From positions 124,001 through 188,000 of the forward strand of contig NZ_JAUSTE010000002.1 of NCBI RefSeq assembly GCF_030812675.1: a stretch of DNA of 64,000 nt. The letters run 5' to 3'. This stretch comes from Sinomonas atrocyanea. GTDB lineage: Bacteria > Actinomycetota > Actinomycetes > Actinomycetales > Micrococcaceae. A program made the position numbers and the translations under genes. The notes under the pieces were generated by a model. That model made no database searches. It had not been told where the DNA came from and was given only the letters and a program-made list of their open reading frames with translations. Position 1 is the stretch's first letter. Each line of letters begins with the position of its first letter. Positions 504 to 38,063 of the stretch are shown here, in pieces.

Positions 504-2332
504 CAGGCGTCCTTCTGAGTACTGGCCGAGGTGGTTGTACTGGCCGACGTGGTTGTACTTGCCGACGTGGTGTTGCTGGCCGACGGGGTCTTCGCATTCC
601 CAGTCTGCGCCCCCGGGTCCTCGCCGGGAACGTCCCAGGCCTTGGCGAGCGCGGCGCGCACGGCCCGGCCCTCGGCGGCCAGGCCGCCGTGGTCCTCGCC
701 GCGGGTGAGGAGGCCGTACTCGATCATGGTGCGCCCGTCCTCGTGCTGGCCCACCCGCACCCACAGGCGCCGCCGGGTCAGGAAGAGGGAGCAGATGAGT
801 CCGGCCAGGGAGAACAGGGCGAAGCCGAGGGCCCATTCCTGTCCCGGGTTGTGGTGGATGTCGAGGGCAACGTAGCGCTTGAGGCCGTCGAAGCTGATCG
901 ACCCCTGCCCGTTCGGCAGGCTGTAGGACTGGCCCGCGCCCAGCACGATGCCCCCGGCAGGCTTGTCGCGGCCGTTGACCTGGGTCAGCTTGGCGACGTC
1001 GAGCGCGTAGACGTTCTGGGGCTTGCCCTTGTCGAGCCCGAGGTCGCCCACGTACGAGTTCAGGTTGAGCTGGACGTTGAGCGGATCGGGATCGGCGCTG
1101 AAGGCGACGTTGTTCGCGCCCTTCTCGGCGGTCGGGAGGAAGAATCCCACGAAGCCGAGCTGGGTGGGCTTGGCGTCGGGGACCTTGATGACGACCGTCG
1201 AGGTGTAGACGGCGTCGGTCGGGATGGCCGGAACAGGGCCCTGGAAGGCCACCTTCCCGTCGCCGCCGCGGACCGTCACCACCGGCGCGTAGCCGTTGCC
1301 GACGAGGTAGACGTCCGTGGCGCCGATCGAGATCGGGTCGTTGACCTTGAGGTCCTGCTGCCGCTCCGGATCGCCTGGCGAGTCCCGCGTGGTCACGTGC
1401 GCGGTGAAGTCGAGCGGCTGGCCGAACTGCTTGACCGACTCGCGGTCGTAGCGGACGTCGAACTTGTCCAGGCGGAGCGAGTACGGGGCGAGCCAGCTGG
1501 ACTGGAAGTCGGTGCCCGGGTTGAACGTGTCGTACCCGACGAGGGTGTTGACGAACGACTCGCCCTCGATCAGGGTGCGCTGGCCGCTGTAGCCGAACAG
1601 GCCGCCGATCGCCACAGACACGAGCACGCCCACGAGCCCGGAGTGGAAGCAGAGGTTTCCGAACTCCTTGAGGTAGCCCTTCTCGGCCCCCACGGAGTGG
1701 AACGCGGACGCACGACGGCGAGCACCGCCGTCGGGCGCGTCCGTCGCCTCGGTCTCGGGCGCGGCAGGGCGGAGGTCGACGCGGTAGCCGCGCTTCTTGA
1801 GGAGGGCTGCGGCCTGCTCGGCGGCATCCGCCGCGGCGAGGCCGCGCGCGGCCGGGACCACGAGCGTGCCGTAGACCGGCATGCGGGACAGCCGGGCGGG
1901 GGTGCGCGGCGGCTTCGAGCGCCAGGACTTCCAGTGGGCGATCGCCCGCGGGACGACGCAGCCGATCAGCGAGATGAACAGCAGCAGGTAGATGGCCGAG
2001 AACCAGACCGACGAGTAGACGTCGAACATCTGGAGCTTGTCCAGGAGCGGCCCGTAGTCGGCGTGGTCCTTGAGGTACTGGGTCACGACGGCCGGGTTCG
2101 TGGGCCGCTGGGGGAACAGCGATCCGGGAACGGCGGCGACGGCCAGGAGCAGGAGGAGGAAGAGCGCCGTGCGCATGCTCGTCAGCTGGGTCCAGGCCCA
2201 GCGGAGCATGCCCACCACCCCCAAGGCGGGCAGGGCTACGTCGGTGCCCGCGGCCTGCCTGCCCTTGCGGCCCTTGGCGGGCTTCGGGCTCTTCTTGTCC
2301 TGGGTCTCAGGCTTTGACTTCGTCTCACTCAT
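503..2332 (-). CDS. resB: Cytochrome c biogenesis protein ResB
   Basis: ResB is the partner of CcsB in heme delivery to c-type apocytochromes. The 609-residue protein has a Lys-rich cytoplasmic start, hydrophobic segments near residues 50-65 and 105-125, a third at about 220-240 (LVGVLVSVAIGGLFGY), a large extracytoplasmic domain, and a final membrane segment (WALGFALFSLAGLICSLF) near residue 515. This is the ResB architecture. The tail is low-complexity Thr/Ser (repeats of SASTTT) and probably disordered. The ATG at 2332 overlaps the ccdA stop as TGATG. I chose it over the longer upstream open frame, which reads through ccdA out of frame. Confidence 0.93.
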   Translation of the reverse strand: MSETKSKPETQDKKSPKPAKGRKGRQAAGTDVALPALGVVGMLRWAWTQLTSMRTALFLLLLLAVAAVPGSLFPQRPTNPAVVTQYLKDHADYGPLLDKLQMFDVYSSVWFSAIYLLLFISLIGCVVPRAIAHWKSWRSKPPRTPARLSRMPVYGTLVVPAARGLAAADAAEQAAALLKKRGYRVDLRPAAPETEATDAPDGGARRRASAFHSVGAEKGYLKEFGNLCFHSGLVGVLVSVAIGGLFGYSGQRTLIEGESFVNTLVGYDTFNPGTDFQSSWLAPYSLRLDKFDVRYDRESVKQFGQPLDFTAHVTTRDSPGDPERQQDLKVNDPISIGATDVYLVGNGYAPVVTVRGGDGKVAFQGPVPAIPTDAVYTSTVVIKVPDAKPTQLGFVGFFLPTAEKGANNVAFSADPDPLNVQLNLNSYVGDLGLDKGKPQNVYALDVAKLTQVNGRDKPAGGIVLGAGQSYSLPNGQGSISFDGLKRYVALDIHHNPGQEWALGFALFSLAGLICSLFLTRRRLWVRVGQHEDGRTMIEYGLLTRGEDHGGLAAEGRAVRAALAKAWDVPGEDPGAQTGNAKTPSASNTTSASTTTSASTTTSASTQKDA

Positions 2333-33560: not shown

Positions 33561-34355
33561 TCACGCTAGCGGCCGGGGCATGGCCTCGTCCCAGAGCGCG
33601 GCGAGGGACGCCGCGACGCGCTCCGGCTCGGCGCGGTGCGGAGGGTCGAAGTGGTGCCTGCCGGGGAACACCTCGAGCCGGAACCGGGGGAAGACGCCGG
33701 AGAGCCGGTCGGCGATCTCGCCGTAGTCGTCGGGGTTGGAGAGGCCTCCGAGGGCGAAGTAGACCGGGCGGTCGAACCGCTCCAGGGCGCTGCGGTCGAG
33801 GCTGTACGTGGAGAACGTGGCCAGGAAGGCCCGGATGCCCGCGGGCCGAAGGGCCATCCAGGGCGGCTGTTCCCCGCCCGGCACCGGCAGGCCCGCCGTC
33901 ACGCCGGGGCGCACGCCGAGACGGACGAACCGGGCCATGAACTCATCCGGCGGGAGCCCGTCCAGGTGGGCGTACTGCTTCCAGAGGGCGCGGTGGGCGG
34001 GACTCCATTCCCAGTTCCCCGCCCACGCCGGCTCGAGCAGCGCGAGCGACTCGAGCAGCTCGGGGTGTCTCGCCGCGACGGCGAGGGCTGAGGCTCCCCC
34101 GCCGGAGTACCCCACGAGATGGAAGGTGTCCCAGTGCAGCTCACGGGCTGCGCGCACGACGCCGGCCACCTCCTTGTCGAGGGAATAGTCGGCGGGCGGC
34201 GTGGTCCCGGCATAGACCTCGAGGTCCTTGGCGACGGGCTGGACCGCAGCCCCGAGCCTGGCCTGCAGGGCCGCGATGAGCGCCCCGTAGGCCGGGGCTG
34301 CGGGGAGGACGGTGCCGGGGAGGAGGAGGACACGGTGTACGGCTGCGGTGTTCAT
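33561..34355 (-). CDS. Alpha/beta hydrolase
   Basis: A 264-residue alpha/beta hydrolase: [14 protein letters not shown] near the start as oxyanion region, nucleophile in [15 protein letters not shown] (Ser near residue 101), acid in [15 protein letters not shown], and His in [17 protein letters not shown]. Usual size for esterase or lipase-like hydrolases; substrate unknown. ATG 34355. UdgB follows directly. Upstream, on the other strand, is the HD/LuxR gene with a duplicated 14-mer between the two. Confidence 0.87.
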
Positions 34356-34421
34356 GTCCCAAGGATCCGTCTGCTCGGGCCGCGCCGCATCGCGCGATCG
34401 CGCTATGCCGCCCCGCTGCCC

Positions 34422-34449
34422 GGCCGACGCTGTACGGCCGACGCTGTAC
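34422..34449. repeat. Perfect 14-bp tandem duplication
   Basis: GGCCGACGCTGTAC occurs twice in a row, 31 bases before the HD/LuxR start. Could be a paired regulator site or slippage product. Confidence 0.6.
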
Positions 34450-34479
34450 GGGCGCCTCCGCCCGCGCGATCATCGTCGC

Positions 34480-35991
34480 ATGACGCGCCCGTTGCGCCTG
34501 GCCGAATTCGCCGCCGCCGCATCCCTCGCCACCGACCTCGGCATGGGCCAGCCGCTCGAGCAGGGCCTGCGGACCTGTCTCACGGCCCTCGAACTGGCAG
34601 ATGCCGCGGGCGTGGACCGTGGCCTGCTGCCCGAGGTGTACTACACCGCGCTCCTGCGGTTCCTCGGCTGCACCGCCGACGCGGCCGCGGCAGCGGCGCT
34701 CGCGGGCGGCGACGAGATCGCGCTGCGTGCCGCGATCGCGCCCGTGCTCGGCGCGCCGCCGCGGGAGTTCCTCCGCGCAGTCCTGCCCGGGCTCGCCCCC
34801 GACCGCGCCCTCCTGCCCCGCCTCGGGGCCGCGGCGGTCTTCCTCGCCCGGGGCCGGGAGACGCTCCGCGCCGGGGTCCGCGCCCACTGCGAGGCCGGCG
34901 AGGTCCTCGCCGCACGGCTCGGCCTTCCCCCGGGGACGAGGGCGGCGCTGAGGGCAGCATTCGAGACCTGGGACGGCCGGGGCTTCCCCGACGGCGTGGC
35001 CGGCGAGGAGATCCCGCTTCCCGCGCGGATCGCGTTCGCTGCCCGTGACATCGAGGTCATCGGACGGCTCCGGGGCCGGGAGGCCCTGAGCGCGGCGCTC
35101 CGGGACCGGTCGGGGCGCTCCCTCGACCCGGAGCTGGTGGGCACCGCCCTGAGGCACCTCGACGGGCTTCTCGACGCCGCCGGCACCGAGCGGCCCTGGG
35201 ACGAGGCCCTGCGCCGCGAGCCCGCGCCGCTCGCCGTCCTCCCGGCGGACCGGATGGACGAGGTCCTCGCGGTGCTCGCCGACTTCGCGGACCTCAAGGT
35301 GCCCGCCCGCGCCGGGTTCTCGCGCGACGTCGCCGCGCTCGCCGCCTCCGCGGCCCCCGACCATGCCGAGGCCGTGCGCCGTGCGGGCCTGGTGCAGGAC
35401 CTCGGGCGGGTGGCGGTCCCGGCGGGACCGGCGTCCGGGTCGCTGGAGGTGTCCGAGCGGCTCCGGCTGCACCCGTACTACAGCGAGCGCATCCTGGCCC
35501 GGATCCCGGCCACGGCGCCGCTCGCGCGGCTGGCGGGCCTGCACCACGAACGGCTCGACGGCTCCGGCTACTACCGGGGCGCCACGGCCGGGGACCTGCC
35601 GTGGGAGGCCAAGGTCCTTGCTGCCGCGGACGCGTTCCGGGAACTGCTCATCGCCCCGGCCGGCCGGCAGCAGGTCCCCCTCGCGGACGCCGCAGAGGCC
35701 CTCAGCCGGGAGGCACCGGACCGCCTCGACCGCGAGGCGGTCGACGCCGTCCTCGCCGCCGCAGGGGCGAGGGGCCGCCGCACACGGCCGGCGTGGCCGG
35801 CGGGCCTCACCGCGCGGGAAGTCGACGTCCTCCGCCTCCTCTGCCGCGGCGCGACCAAGAAGGAGGTCGCTGCCGCCCTGGGGATCTCGCCGGCGACCGC
35901 GGACCACCACGTGCGCCACATCTACAGCAAGACCGGGTGCTCCACGCGGGCCGGAGCAGCCCTGTATGCCGCGGGCCATGACCTCCTCTGA
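34480..35991 (+). CDS. HD domain phosphohydrolase-like protein with C-terminal LuxR HTH
   Basis: A 503-residue protein. It has two diverged HD/HD-GYP-like halves: the first around residues 140-190 (RAHCEAGEVLAARLG, FETWDGRGFPDGV), the second around 300-380 (GLVQDLGRVAVP, LHPYYSERIL, HHERLDGSGYYRG). The His-Asp of the second half reads Gln-Asp (VQDLGR), so metal binding may be lost there. The end is a LuxR-type HTH (LTAREVDVLRLLCRGATKKE, VAAALGISPATADHHVRHIY). A ligand-sensing regulator is likely; hydrolase activity is uncertain. Confidence 0.86.
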   Translation: MTRPLRLAEFAAAASLATDLGMGQPLEQGLRTCLTALELADAAGVDRGLLPEVYYTALLRFLGCTADAAAAAALAGGDEIALRAAIAPVLGAPPREFLRAVLPGLAPDRALLPRLGAAAVFLARGRETLRAGVRAHCEAGEVLAARLGLPPGTRAALRAAFETWDGRGFPDGVAGEEIPLPARIAFAARDIEVIGRLRGREALSAALRDRSGRSLDPELVGTALRHLDGLLDAAGTERPWDEALRREPAPLAVLPADRMDEVLAVLADFADLKVPARAGFSRDVAALAASAAPDHAEAVRRAGLVQDLGRVAVPAGPASGSLEVSERLRLHPYYSERILARIPATAPLARLAGLHHERLDGSGYYRGATAGDLPWEAKVLAAADAFRELLIAPAGRQQVPLADAAEALSREAPDRLDREAVDAVLAAAGARGRRTRPAWPAGLTAREVDVLRLLCRGATKKEVAAALGISPATADHHVRHIYSKTGCSTRAGAALYAAGHDLL

Positions 35992-36003: not shown

Positions 36004-36849
36004 TCAGCCCTGCGGTGCGCGGCTGAGCTCGCGGGTGATCTCGTCCGAACGTTCGACGGCGGCGCGGGCCCCCTCGGCGATGATCCCGGGCAGGCCCCGC
36101 TCGTCGAAGACCCGGATGGCCTGCTCGGTGGTGCCCTTGGGGCTCGTCACGGCGCGCCGGAGGGCGGCGGGGTCCGCGCCGGGCTCGTCCAGCATGTACC
36201 CGGCCCCGACCACGGTCTCGCGGGCCAGCTGGAGGGCGAGCCCGGGCTCGAGGCCCAGCGACTCGCCGGCCTTGGCCATGGCCTCGGCGAGGTAGAAGGC
36301 GTACGCGGGGCCGGAGCCGCTCACCGCGCTCACGGCGGCGATCTGGTCCTCGGAAACCTCCACCACGAGCCCGAGACCGCTGAAGAGCTTCTTGACGTGC
36401 TCGACCTGGTCGGTGGTGGCGTGCGTTCCGCGCGCGACGGCGACCACGCCCTTGCCGAGCCGGGAGGGGGTGTTGGGCATGGTGCGGATCACCGGCTGGC
36501 CTTCGGGGAGCTCACCCTCGAGCTGCTCGACCGACACGGCGGCGGCGACGCTCACCACGACGGCTCCGGGGCTGAGCACCGGCGCGATCTCGCGTGCCAC
36601 GGCCGCGACCCCGACGGGCTTGACGCCGATGACGACGATCGAGGCCCCGCGGGCTGCCTGCGCGTTGGAGTCGCCCTCCTCGTCCCAGGCCATGACGGTC
36701 ACGCCGTAGCGTTCAGCCAGCTCGGAGGCGCTCTCCCTGCGCCGCACCGTGGCGACGATGTCCGTCTTGGGGAAGCCGGCCGCGAGCAGGCCGCCCATGA
36801 TGGCCCCGTTCATGGAACCCGTGCCGAGGAATGCGATCTTGTTGCTCAT
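36004..36849 (-). CDS. proC: Pyrroline-5-carboxylate reductase
   Basis: Last step of proline synthesis: reduction of pyrroline-5-carboxylate with NAD(P)H. The 281-residue protein has the Rossmann motif IAFLGTGSMNGAIMGG (residues 5-20), VIGVKPVGVAAV, the MPNTPSRLGKG loop near residue 127, and the substrate signature AVSAVSGSGPAYAFYLAEAM with TVVGAGYMLDEPGADPAALR. It ends 12 bases from the convergent HD/LuxR gene. The 311 bases upstream hold two strong hairpins. Confidence 0.95.
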   Translation of the reverse strand: MSNKIAFLGTGSMNGAIMGGLLAAGFPKTDIVATVRRRESASELAERYGVTVMAWDEEGDSNAQAARGASIVVIGVKPVGVAAVAREIAPVLSPGAVVVSVAAAVSVEQLEGELPEGQPVIRTMPNTPSRLGKGVVAVARGTHATTDQVEHVKKLFSGLGLVVEVSEDQIAAVSAVSGSGPAYAFYLAEAMAKAGESLGLEPGLALQLARETVVGAGYMLDEPGADPAALRRAVTSPKGTTEQAIRVFDERGLPGIIAEGARAAVERSDEITRELSRAPQG

Positions 36850-36987
36850 GCCCCCATCCTGCCAGCCGAGCGCGGCGGCCGCATGCTGGCCGGTGGCACC
36901 TTTCCCAGCCTTTTCCCACCCTCGCCCCGGTGTTCTCCCATACTCCGTCCCTACAGTAATAACTACCTCACAGGGTGCGAGTGATGG

Positions 36988-37073
36988 GGCGGTCAGTCTC
37001 CCCCCAAGACTGACCGCCAGGCACTGGCAGTTCGGATGTATGGTCCCCTAACCTTCCCCGAACTGCCAGTGCC
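36988..37073 (+). ncRNA. Paired hairpins, candidate 6C-like small RNA
   Basis: Two perfect stems in tandem: GGCGGTCAGTCT / AGACTGACCGCC (12 bp, 36988-37018) with loop CCCCCCA, and GGCACTGGCAGTTCGG / its complement (16 bp, 37020-37073) with a 22-base loop containing TCCCC. Six cytosines in a hairpin loop is the hallmark of the actinobacterial 6C RNA, which has two such hairpins; only the first is typical. Alternative: a double terminator for the minus-strand isomerase, although no T-run follows. Strand is inferred from the C-rich loop. The 311-base gap between proC and the isomerase is otherwise empty. Confidence 0.4.
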
Positions 37074-37160
37074 GAACTCGTTTAAGGGGTCCTCGTCCTC
37101 AAGGGCGCGCGGACTGCTCCGGCGCCGGCCCCGGGCAGAGGCCGCCGCCGAAGCCCCTGC

Positions 37161-38063
37161 CTAGATTCCGCTGCCGGCGTCGAGGCGGGCGCGCTGGCCC
37201 AGATGGGTGCGGGCGAATTCGAGGGTCTCGGCGAGCATGCGCTCGCGCTCCCCCGCCACCTTGGCCTTGCGCGTGCTGATCTCGGCGACCACCGCGCCGT
37301 CGAATCCGTTCCCGCCCAGGTGCGCGAGGCACTCCGCGACCCGCTGCGTCCCCTGGCCGGGGAGGAGGTGCTCATCGCGGAACGAGCGTCCGGACCCGTC
37401 GGTCAGGTGGACGTGCCGCAGCGTGCTGCCGAGCGCCTTGATCGCCGCGAGGCTGTCCTCGCGCGCGGTGGCCGCGTGCGAGAAGTCCCACGTGACGTCC
37501 TGGTAGCCCTGTCCGATCGGGTCCCAGTGCGGGAGGTAGGCGAGGGTCTCGCGGCCGCGGACGCGCCAGGGGTACATGTTCTCGACCGCGATCCGGACCC
37601 CGTACGCGTCGGAGAGGTCCCGGACACCGTGCGCGAACGTCTCCGCGTAGTTGCCCTGCCAGCGGAACGGCGGGTGCACCACCACGGTCTCGCAGCCGAC
37701 GTCGACCGCCATCTTGCAGGACTGGCTGATCTTGTTCCACGGCGACCCCCACACCTGCTGGGTCAGCAGGAGCGTGGGCGCATGGATGGACACGATCGGC
37801 TGGTCGTAGTGCTGCGCGAGCTGGATGAGCTCCTCGGCCTTCTGGCTCGTGGAGTTGTTGGTCACCATGACCTCGACGCCGTCGAAGCCGAGGTCGGCGG
37901 CCACCGCGAAGGCGTCGTGGACGCTCAGCGGATAGACCGAGGCGCTCGAGAGGGCCACCGGGATCTCCCCTCCGTCCGGGCGCTGGTCCGCCTCTGGTGC
38001 CGCCTGGGGTGCTGTCTCCACGTGGGTTCCCGCTTCCGCTCCGGTGCCGCTGGATGAGTTCAT
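37161..38063 (-). CDS. Sugar phosphate isomerase/epimerase (xylose isomerase-like TIM barrel)
   Basis: A 300-residue TIM-barrel protein of the AP-endonuclease 2 / sugar isomerase superfamily. Metal ligands are likely in TVVVHPPFRWQG (His), IAVENMYPWRV (Glu), DVTWDFSHA (Asp, His), LRHVHLTDG (His) and VVAEISTRKA (Glu). The actual substrate is not known. Residues 1-35 are an extra acidic, disordered start. ATG 38063 overlaps the Ppx stop by four bases (ATGA), matching the mycobacterial gene order Ppx-TIM barrel-ProC. Confidence 0.9.
   Translation of the reverse strand: MNSSSGTGAEAGTHVETAPQAAPEADQRPDGGEIPVALSSASVYPLSVHDAFAVAADLGFDGVEVMVTNNSTSQKAEELIQLAQHYDQPIVSIHAPTLLLTQQVWGSPWNKISQSCKMAVDVGCETVVVHPPFRWQGNYAETFAHGVRDLSDAYGVRIAVENMYPWRVRGRETLAYLPHWDPIGQGYQDVTWDFSHAATAREDSLAAIKALGSTLRHVHLTDGSGRSFRDEHLLPGQGTQRVAECLAHLGGNGFDGAVVAEISTRKAKVAGERERMLAETLEFARTHLGQRARLDAGSGI

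Follow-up and report, generated by a model that had tools for sequence, protein, structure and literature searches.

A putative small-RNA gene divergent from proC in Sinomonas atrocyanea, probably a member of an apparently undescribed family of tagged RNAs in the Micrococcaceae

In Sinomonas atrocyanea the region upstream of proC contains a conserved, divergently oriented small-RNA gene, described here as a member of a larger and apparently undescribed family in soil bacteria related to Arthrobacter. The DNA analyzed (termed the window) is the 64,000-nucleotide stretch at positions 124,001 to 188,000 of contig NZ_JAUSTE010000002.1, and coordinates below refer to it unless another locus is named. 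Comparisons between related sequences bring out the components of a candidate gene unit: a -10 box, a constant 5' tag, hairpins that undergo compensatory changes, an enrichment of C-runs in the loops, an array of half-sites with an 11-bp period, and both tandem and scattered paralogues. Taken as a whole, the best explanation--a small RNA encoded on the plus strand, belonging to a multi-copy family found across the Micrococcaceae, which would act in trans through its C-rich loops and be controlled by a response regulator--is considered fairly probable.

The locus and its two hairpins

The putative gene is situated within a 311-nt intergenic gap (36850-37160) between two minus-strand genes, namely proC, which encodes pyrroline-5-carboxylate reductase (36004-36849; Pfam PF14748 and PF03807), and a gene encoding a xylose-isomerase-like TIM-barrel protein (37161-38060; Pfam PF01261). 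A first-pass annotation had called this gap free of reading frames; its extent is confirmed, but small mechanical ORFs cross it (e.g., 36749-37051 on the plus strand). Beyond proC, the plus strand encodes a protein (34312-35991) that combines an HD domain (HD_5) with a DNA-binding domain of the LuxR type and that occupies this place in 10 of 15 genus loci.

An inverted-repeat search recovers both of the perfect stems that the same annotation had reported. Hairpin 1 (36988-37018, plus strand) consists of a 12-bp repeat (36988-36999 and 37007-37018) with 7 nt in between, which form the loop CCCCCCA; hairpin 2 (37020-37073, plus strand) consists of a 16-bp repeat (37020-37035 and 37058-37073) with 22 nt in between. 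As had likewise been observed, the second loop lacks a C6 run; it contains CCCC within GGTCCCCT, and on its 3' side further C residues occur in CTTCCCC, the last two of which are inside the stem. On the plus strand, the region 36980-37080 folds with an energy of -59.4 kcal/mol versus a mean of -30.8 for 200 dinucleotide shuffles (z = -8.2), none of which folds as well. Because the minus strand of the hairpin region also folds stably (z = -7.6), the strand of the RNA is not given by folding energy alone.

Other features point to the plus strand. The box TACAGT (36952-36957, plus strand), which corresponds to a family-wide TAnnnT at the same place, suggests a probable transcript start at about 36963-36966. 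Hairpin 2, the presumed terminator stem, is followed by a T-bearing tail, GAACTCGTTT (37074-37083, plus strand), similar to the tails of many relatives; its shortness counts against the interpretation as a small-RNA gene. The extent of the gene is taken from a match to model R1 (36962-37083, plus strand; that is, G000:C2:160962-161083; 140.8 bits), and model R2 likewise matches (78.7 bits, E = 4.4e-24). A gene that would be transcribed from about 36963 and end past hairpin 2 is very probable.

Conservation within the genus

A DNA search finds the RNA region next to proC, upstream and divergent, in all 15 of 15 Sinomonas genomes. The genus alignment (A3) contains 14 rows; it omits L010, which is identical to L009 over the RNA stretch. 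The 23-nt stretch ACCTCACAGGGTGCGAGTGATGG directly 5' of hairpin 1 (36965-36987, plus strand), termed here the tag, is invariant in all 14 rows and is preceded by a TAnnGT box. In the stems, by contrast, sequences change and pairing persists: 94.1% of cells are paired, and this share is lowered rather than raised by a one-base offset of row L020 in hairpin 1. Changes on both sides of a base pair occur at 12 of 28 pairs (49 cells)--at 8 of the 12 pairs in hairpin 1 and at 4 of the 16 in hairpin 2--an amount that none of 500 shuffles reaches, and slid controls yield at most 5 such pairs.

Two relatives, L016 and L019, have a second RNA copy (minus strand; 395-511 and 396-510, respectively) next to the isomerase end, which has been relocated; it looks as though two tandem copies had been parted by a rearrangement that broke the proC region between them.

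A family of tagged RNAs

The wider family is defined by a TAnnnT box 20-25 nt before the tag, by the tag GGTGCGAGTGA, and by a C-loop hairpin downstream, each of which is present in the window copy. Alignment A6 comprises 41 sequences chosen by hand from 68 matches, antisense and some duplicate or weak ones having been dropped; GGTGCGAGTGA is invariant in 41 of 41, a result that is partly circular in that copies were found via the tag. Over these 41 sequences 16 base pairs are predicted (13 in hairpin 2), and 11 of the 16 exhibit two-sided changes. Of 220 distinct copies, 214 have a TAnnnT at a distance of 10-32 nt 5' of the tag, versus 9 of 220 in a control window, where, as in the other counts, related sequences across copies and genomes are not independent of each other. 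At its start the tag may form a mini-hairpin (ACCT/GGGT in the window copy), beyond which it would be unpaired: as judged by eye, ACCT...AGGT occurs at this place in many copies. RNAalifold proposes CTC/GAG instead, a pairing that is only a candidate because both sides are nearly invariant.

Downstream of the tag are either one hairpin (short forms) or two (proC-linked forms), and among the first 60 sequence clusters 59 fold with z < -2 relative to mononucleotide shuffles. The loops are rich in C-runs: CCCC is found in hairpin loops of 79 of 120 clusters versus 44.0 on average and at most 55 in 500 trials with shuffled loops, and CCCCC in 68 versus a shuffled mean of 24.9; GGGG is found in only 5. 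By the folding used, 41 of the 120 lack a C4 loop. Some paralogues display the loop TTTCACCTCCTTAG, and five copies (L158, L166, L170, L184 and L197) contain CACCTCCTTAG or CGCCTCCTTGTC in a loop or arm; we take the former to resemble the anti-Shine-Dalgarno end of 16S rRNA and the latter two to be like its 3' end. When loops are parsed strictly, 3 of the 220 copies contain CCUCC.

Exact matches to the core tag GGTGCGAGTGATG are present in 76 of 100 Micrococcaceae genomes and 29 of 32 genera, a single genome containing as many as nine; the reversed pattern, used as a control, yields 9 matches in 8 of the 100 genomes. Tags are doubled in some genomes (15 bases apart), and several genera contain two tandem copies about 200-300 nt apart. 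At E ≤ 1, model R1 matches 90 of the 100 genomes and all 32 genera, where many matches are weak and some are possibly due to chance; within the S. atrocyanea genome itself, further R2 matches are weak (E = 0.38 and 0.62). When proC loci were sampled from 30 genera (one genome per genus), R1 matched those of 16 genera at E ≤ 0.1, and R2, which was partly built from these same sequences, matched those of the same 16 at E ≤ 1.3e-8, besides weaker matches (best E = 1.8e-4, in L082).

A longer tag pattern, sought in 246 genomes of the class, is present in 2, both of them Micrococcaceae. At E = 0.01, R2 matches 24 of 149 genomes sampled from the order, 10 of which are Micrococcaceae; the matches outside (best E = 6.8e-5, several of them partial) are read as chance, and an occurrence of the RNA there was rejected. 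A scan of named genomes returned at least 117 stretches, and among the 80 listed nearly all bear Micrococcaceae names, such as Arthrobacter, Pseudarthrobacter, Paenarthrobacter, Glutamicibacter, Zhihengliuella, Micrococcus and Kocuria, all of which we take to be members of this family. Two records titled otherwise, L130 (Sporosarcina beigongshangi) and L151 (Acidobacteria bacterium), harbor relatives of proC, of the isomerase gene and of ppx along with a tagged RNA, and are likely to be mislabelled or contaminated assemblies. In Zafaria, a tagged copy (L134, 1597, minus strand) adjoins a match to the cspA thermoregulator model (1625-1996, minus strand; E = 6.2e-8, below gathering). Literature searches found no paper describing the tagged RNAs, the letters of the tag being met only in one unrelated human-genetics paper; hence the family is apparently undescribed.

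Promoter repeats and candidate regulators

Upstream of the window copy is a promoter box (36901-36943, plus strand) with the 11-bp-spaced half-sites TTCCCAG, TTCCCA and TCCCA, likely a response-regulator site. A repeat matrix, among whose source sites was this very box, gives one strong match in the window, at 36901 (score 30.2), followed by a next best of 12.3; the maxima for shuffled 64-kb sequences are at most 17.4. Across 118 clusters there are four upstream half-sites resembling TTCMCAG (i.e., CACAG-like), with a conserved A at positions -45, -34, -23 and -12 from the T of the -10 box; the array keeps a strict 11-bp period, and its last half-site lies near the place of a -35 box. According to PMC4832192, PhoP of Mycobacterium tuberculosis binds 7-bp TCACAGC repeats separated by a 4-bp spacer. 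In the tagged family the period is 11 bp, and the window half-sites TTCCCAG and TTCCCA differ from TCACAGC.

Scoring the 14 OmpR-type regulator genes of the S. atrocyanea genome with the same matrix gives top values of 27.8 for L284 and 15.0 for L278, a PhoP-like gene, the boxes in both cases lying upstream of the gene or at its start. The closest solved relative of the L278 protein is M. tuberculosis PhoP (E = 1.3e-69), and 15 of 21 PhoP-like genes (≥60% identity) are preceded, at a distance of up to 180 bp, by CACAG-N6-CACAG-like repeats, versus a control rate of 0.004 per 180 bp; the same repeats precede 1 of 9 genes for weaker relatives. That the top score belongs to a different OmpR-type gene counts against the L278 protein. 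Moreover, a PhoP-like protein as the only regulator is not upheld, because 4 of the 9 genera (among 30) that lack such a protein at ≥60% identity keep the proC-linked RNA, versus 12 of the 21 genera that have one. The higher-scoring gene (L284, 1483-2232, minus strand) encodes an OmpR-type protein whose receiver part is unusual, and the 11-bp repeats directly upstream of it (2295, minus strand) are the second-best such set within the scanned stretches of this genome; this protein could be another regulator of the tagged family. The regulator of the tagged RNAs thus likely belongs to the OmpR family, and the chances are roughly even that a response regulator of the PhoP type, by binding to the 11-bp repeats, switches the RNA gene on.

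Relationship to 6C RNA

The first-pass annotation had suggested that the element is a 6C RNA (RF01066), a small actinobacterial RNA with two hairpins and C-runs in the loops, and the possibility of a divergent member of that family is prompted by the two adjacent hairpins, by the six C's in one loop, by the C5 or longer runs displayed in the wider tagged family, and by reports of 6C from many Actinomycetales (PMC4046766). The covariance search, however, does not support this label. Within the 64-kb window no Rfam family matches at its gathering threshold, and at 36800-37250 RF01066 has no match up to E = 10. Across the genome RF01066 has five sub-threshold matches (best 31.5 bits; gathering threshold 47 bits), none of them at the hairpin site. 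Over 61 Micrococcaceae genomes it matches 11 at E ≤ 0.1 and 1 above the cut-off, and the loci fetched in this way lack proC and, in 0 of 13 cases, contain the tag. Moreover, the 6C pattern has about six C's in each of two loops, a pattern that here only CCCCCCA follows, the second loop being without C6. A search of 14 related loci with Rfam 15 (6 up to E = 1 and 8 up to E = 0.1) found nothing on the RNA, apart from an animal family, GRIK4_3p_UTR (E = 0.22; L067, 1068-1154, plus strand), that overlaps the antisense strand of one copy. Membership in 6C, having failed the covariance test for window, site and genome alike, is not supported and was rejected; that the element is a divergent 6C RNA is very improbable. 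What stands of the earlier description is a plus-strand small RNA displaying C-runs in its loops, the name 6C being dropped.

Further differences from 6C (also called B11) concern the genomic place, the constant 5' tag, the long second stem, the tandem and scattered paralogues of the tagged family, and the promoter with its 11-bp repeats. In mycobacteria, according to PMC9569102, 6C is close to Ms1 RNA. The RF01066 matches in other Micrococcaceae genera (at the locus centre in L021, L022, L023 and L026), which mostly score below gathering, apparently have three consecutive C-loop hairpins rather than two, and 6C may exist in a triple-loop form. These results also caution that, in actinobacteria, two hairpins with C-loops do not suffice to call a 6C RNA.

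Terminators, a short peptide or a regulator of proC

The same annotation had offered an alternative in which the hairpins are two terminators of the minus-strand isomerase; the form considered here is a pair of intrinsic terminators or a bidirectional one. Strong GC-rich hairpins do lie downstream of the isomerase stop, and the two strands fold about equally well. On the minus strand, however, no T-run comes after either hairpin, and the sole terminator-like site within 36600-37400 is a different, weak 6-bp hairpin (36981-36967, minus strand). It is, moreover, in the plus direction that the order of promoter, tag and hairpin is conserved. Nor is the element always accompanied by the isomerase gene: this gene is located elsewhere in L016 and L019, its place is taken by ppx in several genera, and there are paralogues with neither this gene nor proC in the stretches examined. 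The strand, the tail and the synteny therefore led to rejection of the terminator reading, which is given hardly any probability. Just as little is given to the idea that the RNA is an mRNA for a short peptide encoded in the tag region (GTG CGA GTG ATG ...). By eye, a stretch of 12 open codons begins with the GTG at 36975 and runs up to a TGA within hairpin 1; past the tag, however, this frame is not kept among relatives, which differ in the length and sequence of hairpin 1, and the tag itself is fixed at all positions, third codon positions included.

A regulator dedicated to proC, whose divergent position would reflect control of proline synthesis, is somewhat less remote, though still improbable. 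Among the 80 listed named loci, 57 of 106 copies are divergent from proC within 800 bp and share its intergenic promoter region; yet 48 of the 106 are in loci without proC in the examined stretch. The RNA is encoded on the strand opposite to proC without overlapping its leader, in which there is no conserved complement. Pairing of the C-loop with a G-run before the proC start (GGATGGGGGCATG) looked promising in the S. atrocyanea genome and was dropped, as the G-run, present in some Sinomonas, is variable and not kept, and as the mRNA looks leaderless. The latter is suggested by a CAGGAT-like -10 box, read by eye, that is kept in the genus about 10 nt before the proC start. It is thus unlikely that proC is a target of the RNA.

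A possible mechanism

The preferred reading--a tagged small RNA acting on other transcripts--draws on B11/6C for its mechanism. By analogy with this RNA, each of whose two C-loops, according to PMC10470900, can repress a mycobacterial target via a G-run in the 5' leader or ribosome-binding site, the C-rich loops would pair in trans with G-rich ribosome-binding sites and thereby block translation of the target mRNAs. Such action, which would probably be common to both RNAs, is somewhat favored for the Sinomonas RNA; it plausibly works as 6C does, even though membership in 6C is not supported. The constant tag may serve as a protein handle, in stability, or as a second pairing site. A further likeness is to Mcr7 of M. 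tuberculosis, an ncRNA that PhoP drives (PMC4038636): as compared by description, both RNAs would be under a PhoP-type regulator and cover ribosome-binding sites. Mcr7 differs in its length of about 350 nt and in its predicted restriction to the M. tuberculosis complex.

Small RNAs present in several near-identical copies, often in tandem and with loops resembling the anti-Shine-Dalgarno sequence, occur as the sibling sRNAs of Neisseria and of other bacteria. The tagged family is likewise multi-copy and often tandem, with C-rich or anti-Shine-Dalgarno-like loops; the siblings belong to other phyla, and no homology is claimed. More speculatively, and with the balance leaning against it, the Micrococcaceae might hold a large regulon of tagged sRNAs, each combining a response-regulator promoter, a tag serving as a handle for an RNA-binding partner, and an exchangeable loop hairpin (either an anti-Shine-Dalgarno mimic or a C-run); new units would arise by tandem duplication, and targets would change with the loop.

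Implications

Few small RNAs of high-GC Gram-positive bacteria have so far been grouped into families and, to our knowledge, most of these bacteria have no known Hfq-like sRNA system. The tagged set is marked by one short invariant sequence with at most nine exact occurrences per genome and by common tandem copies, so that a single probe or pattern recovers all of it. The 11-bp promoter repeats would tie this set to a two-component signal, and, the tag being constant, the question of whether these bacteria have an RNA-binding partner for it becomes open to direct test.
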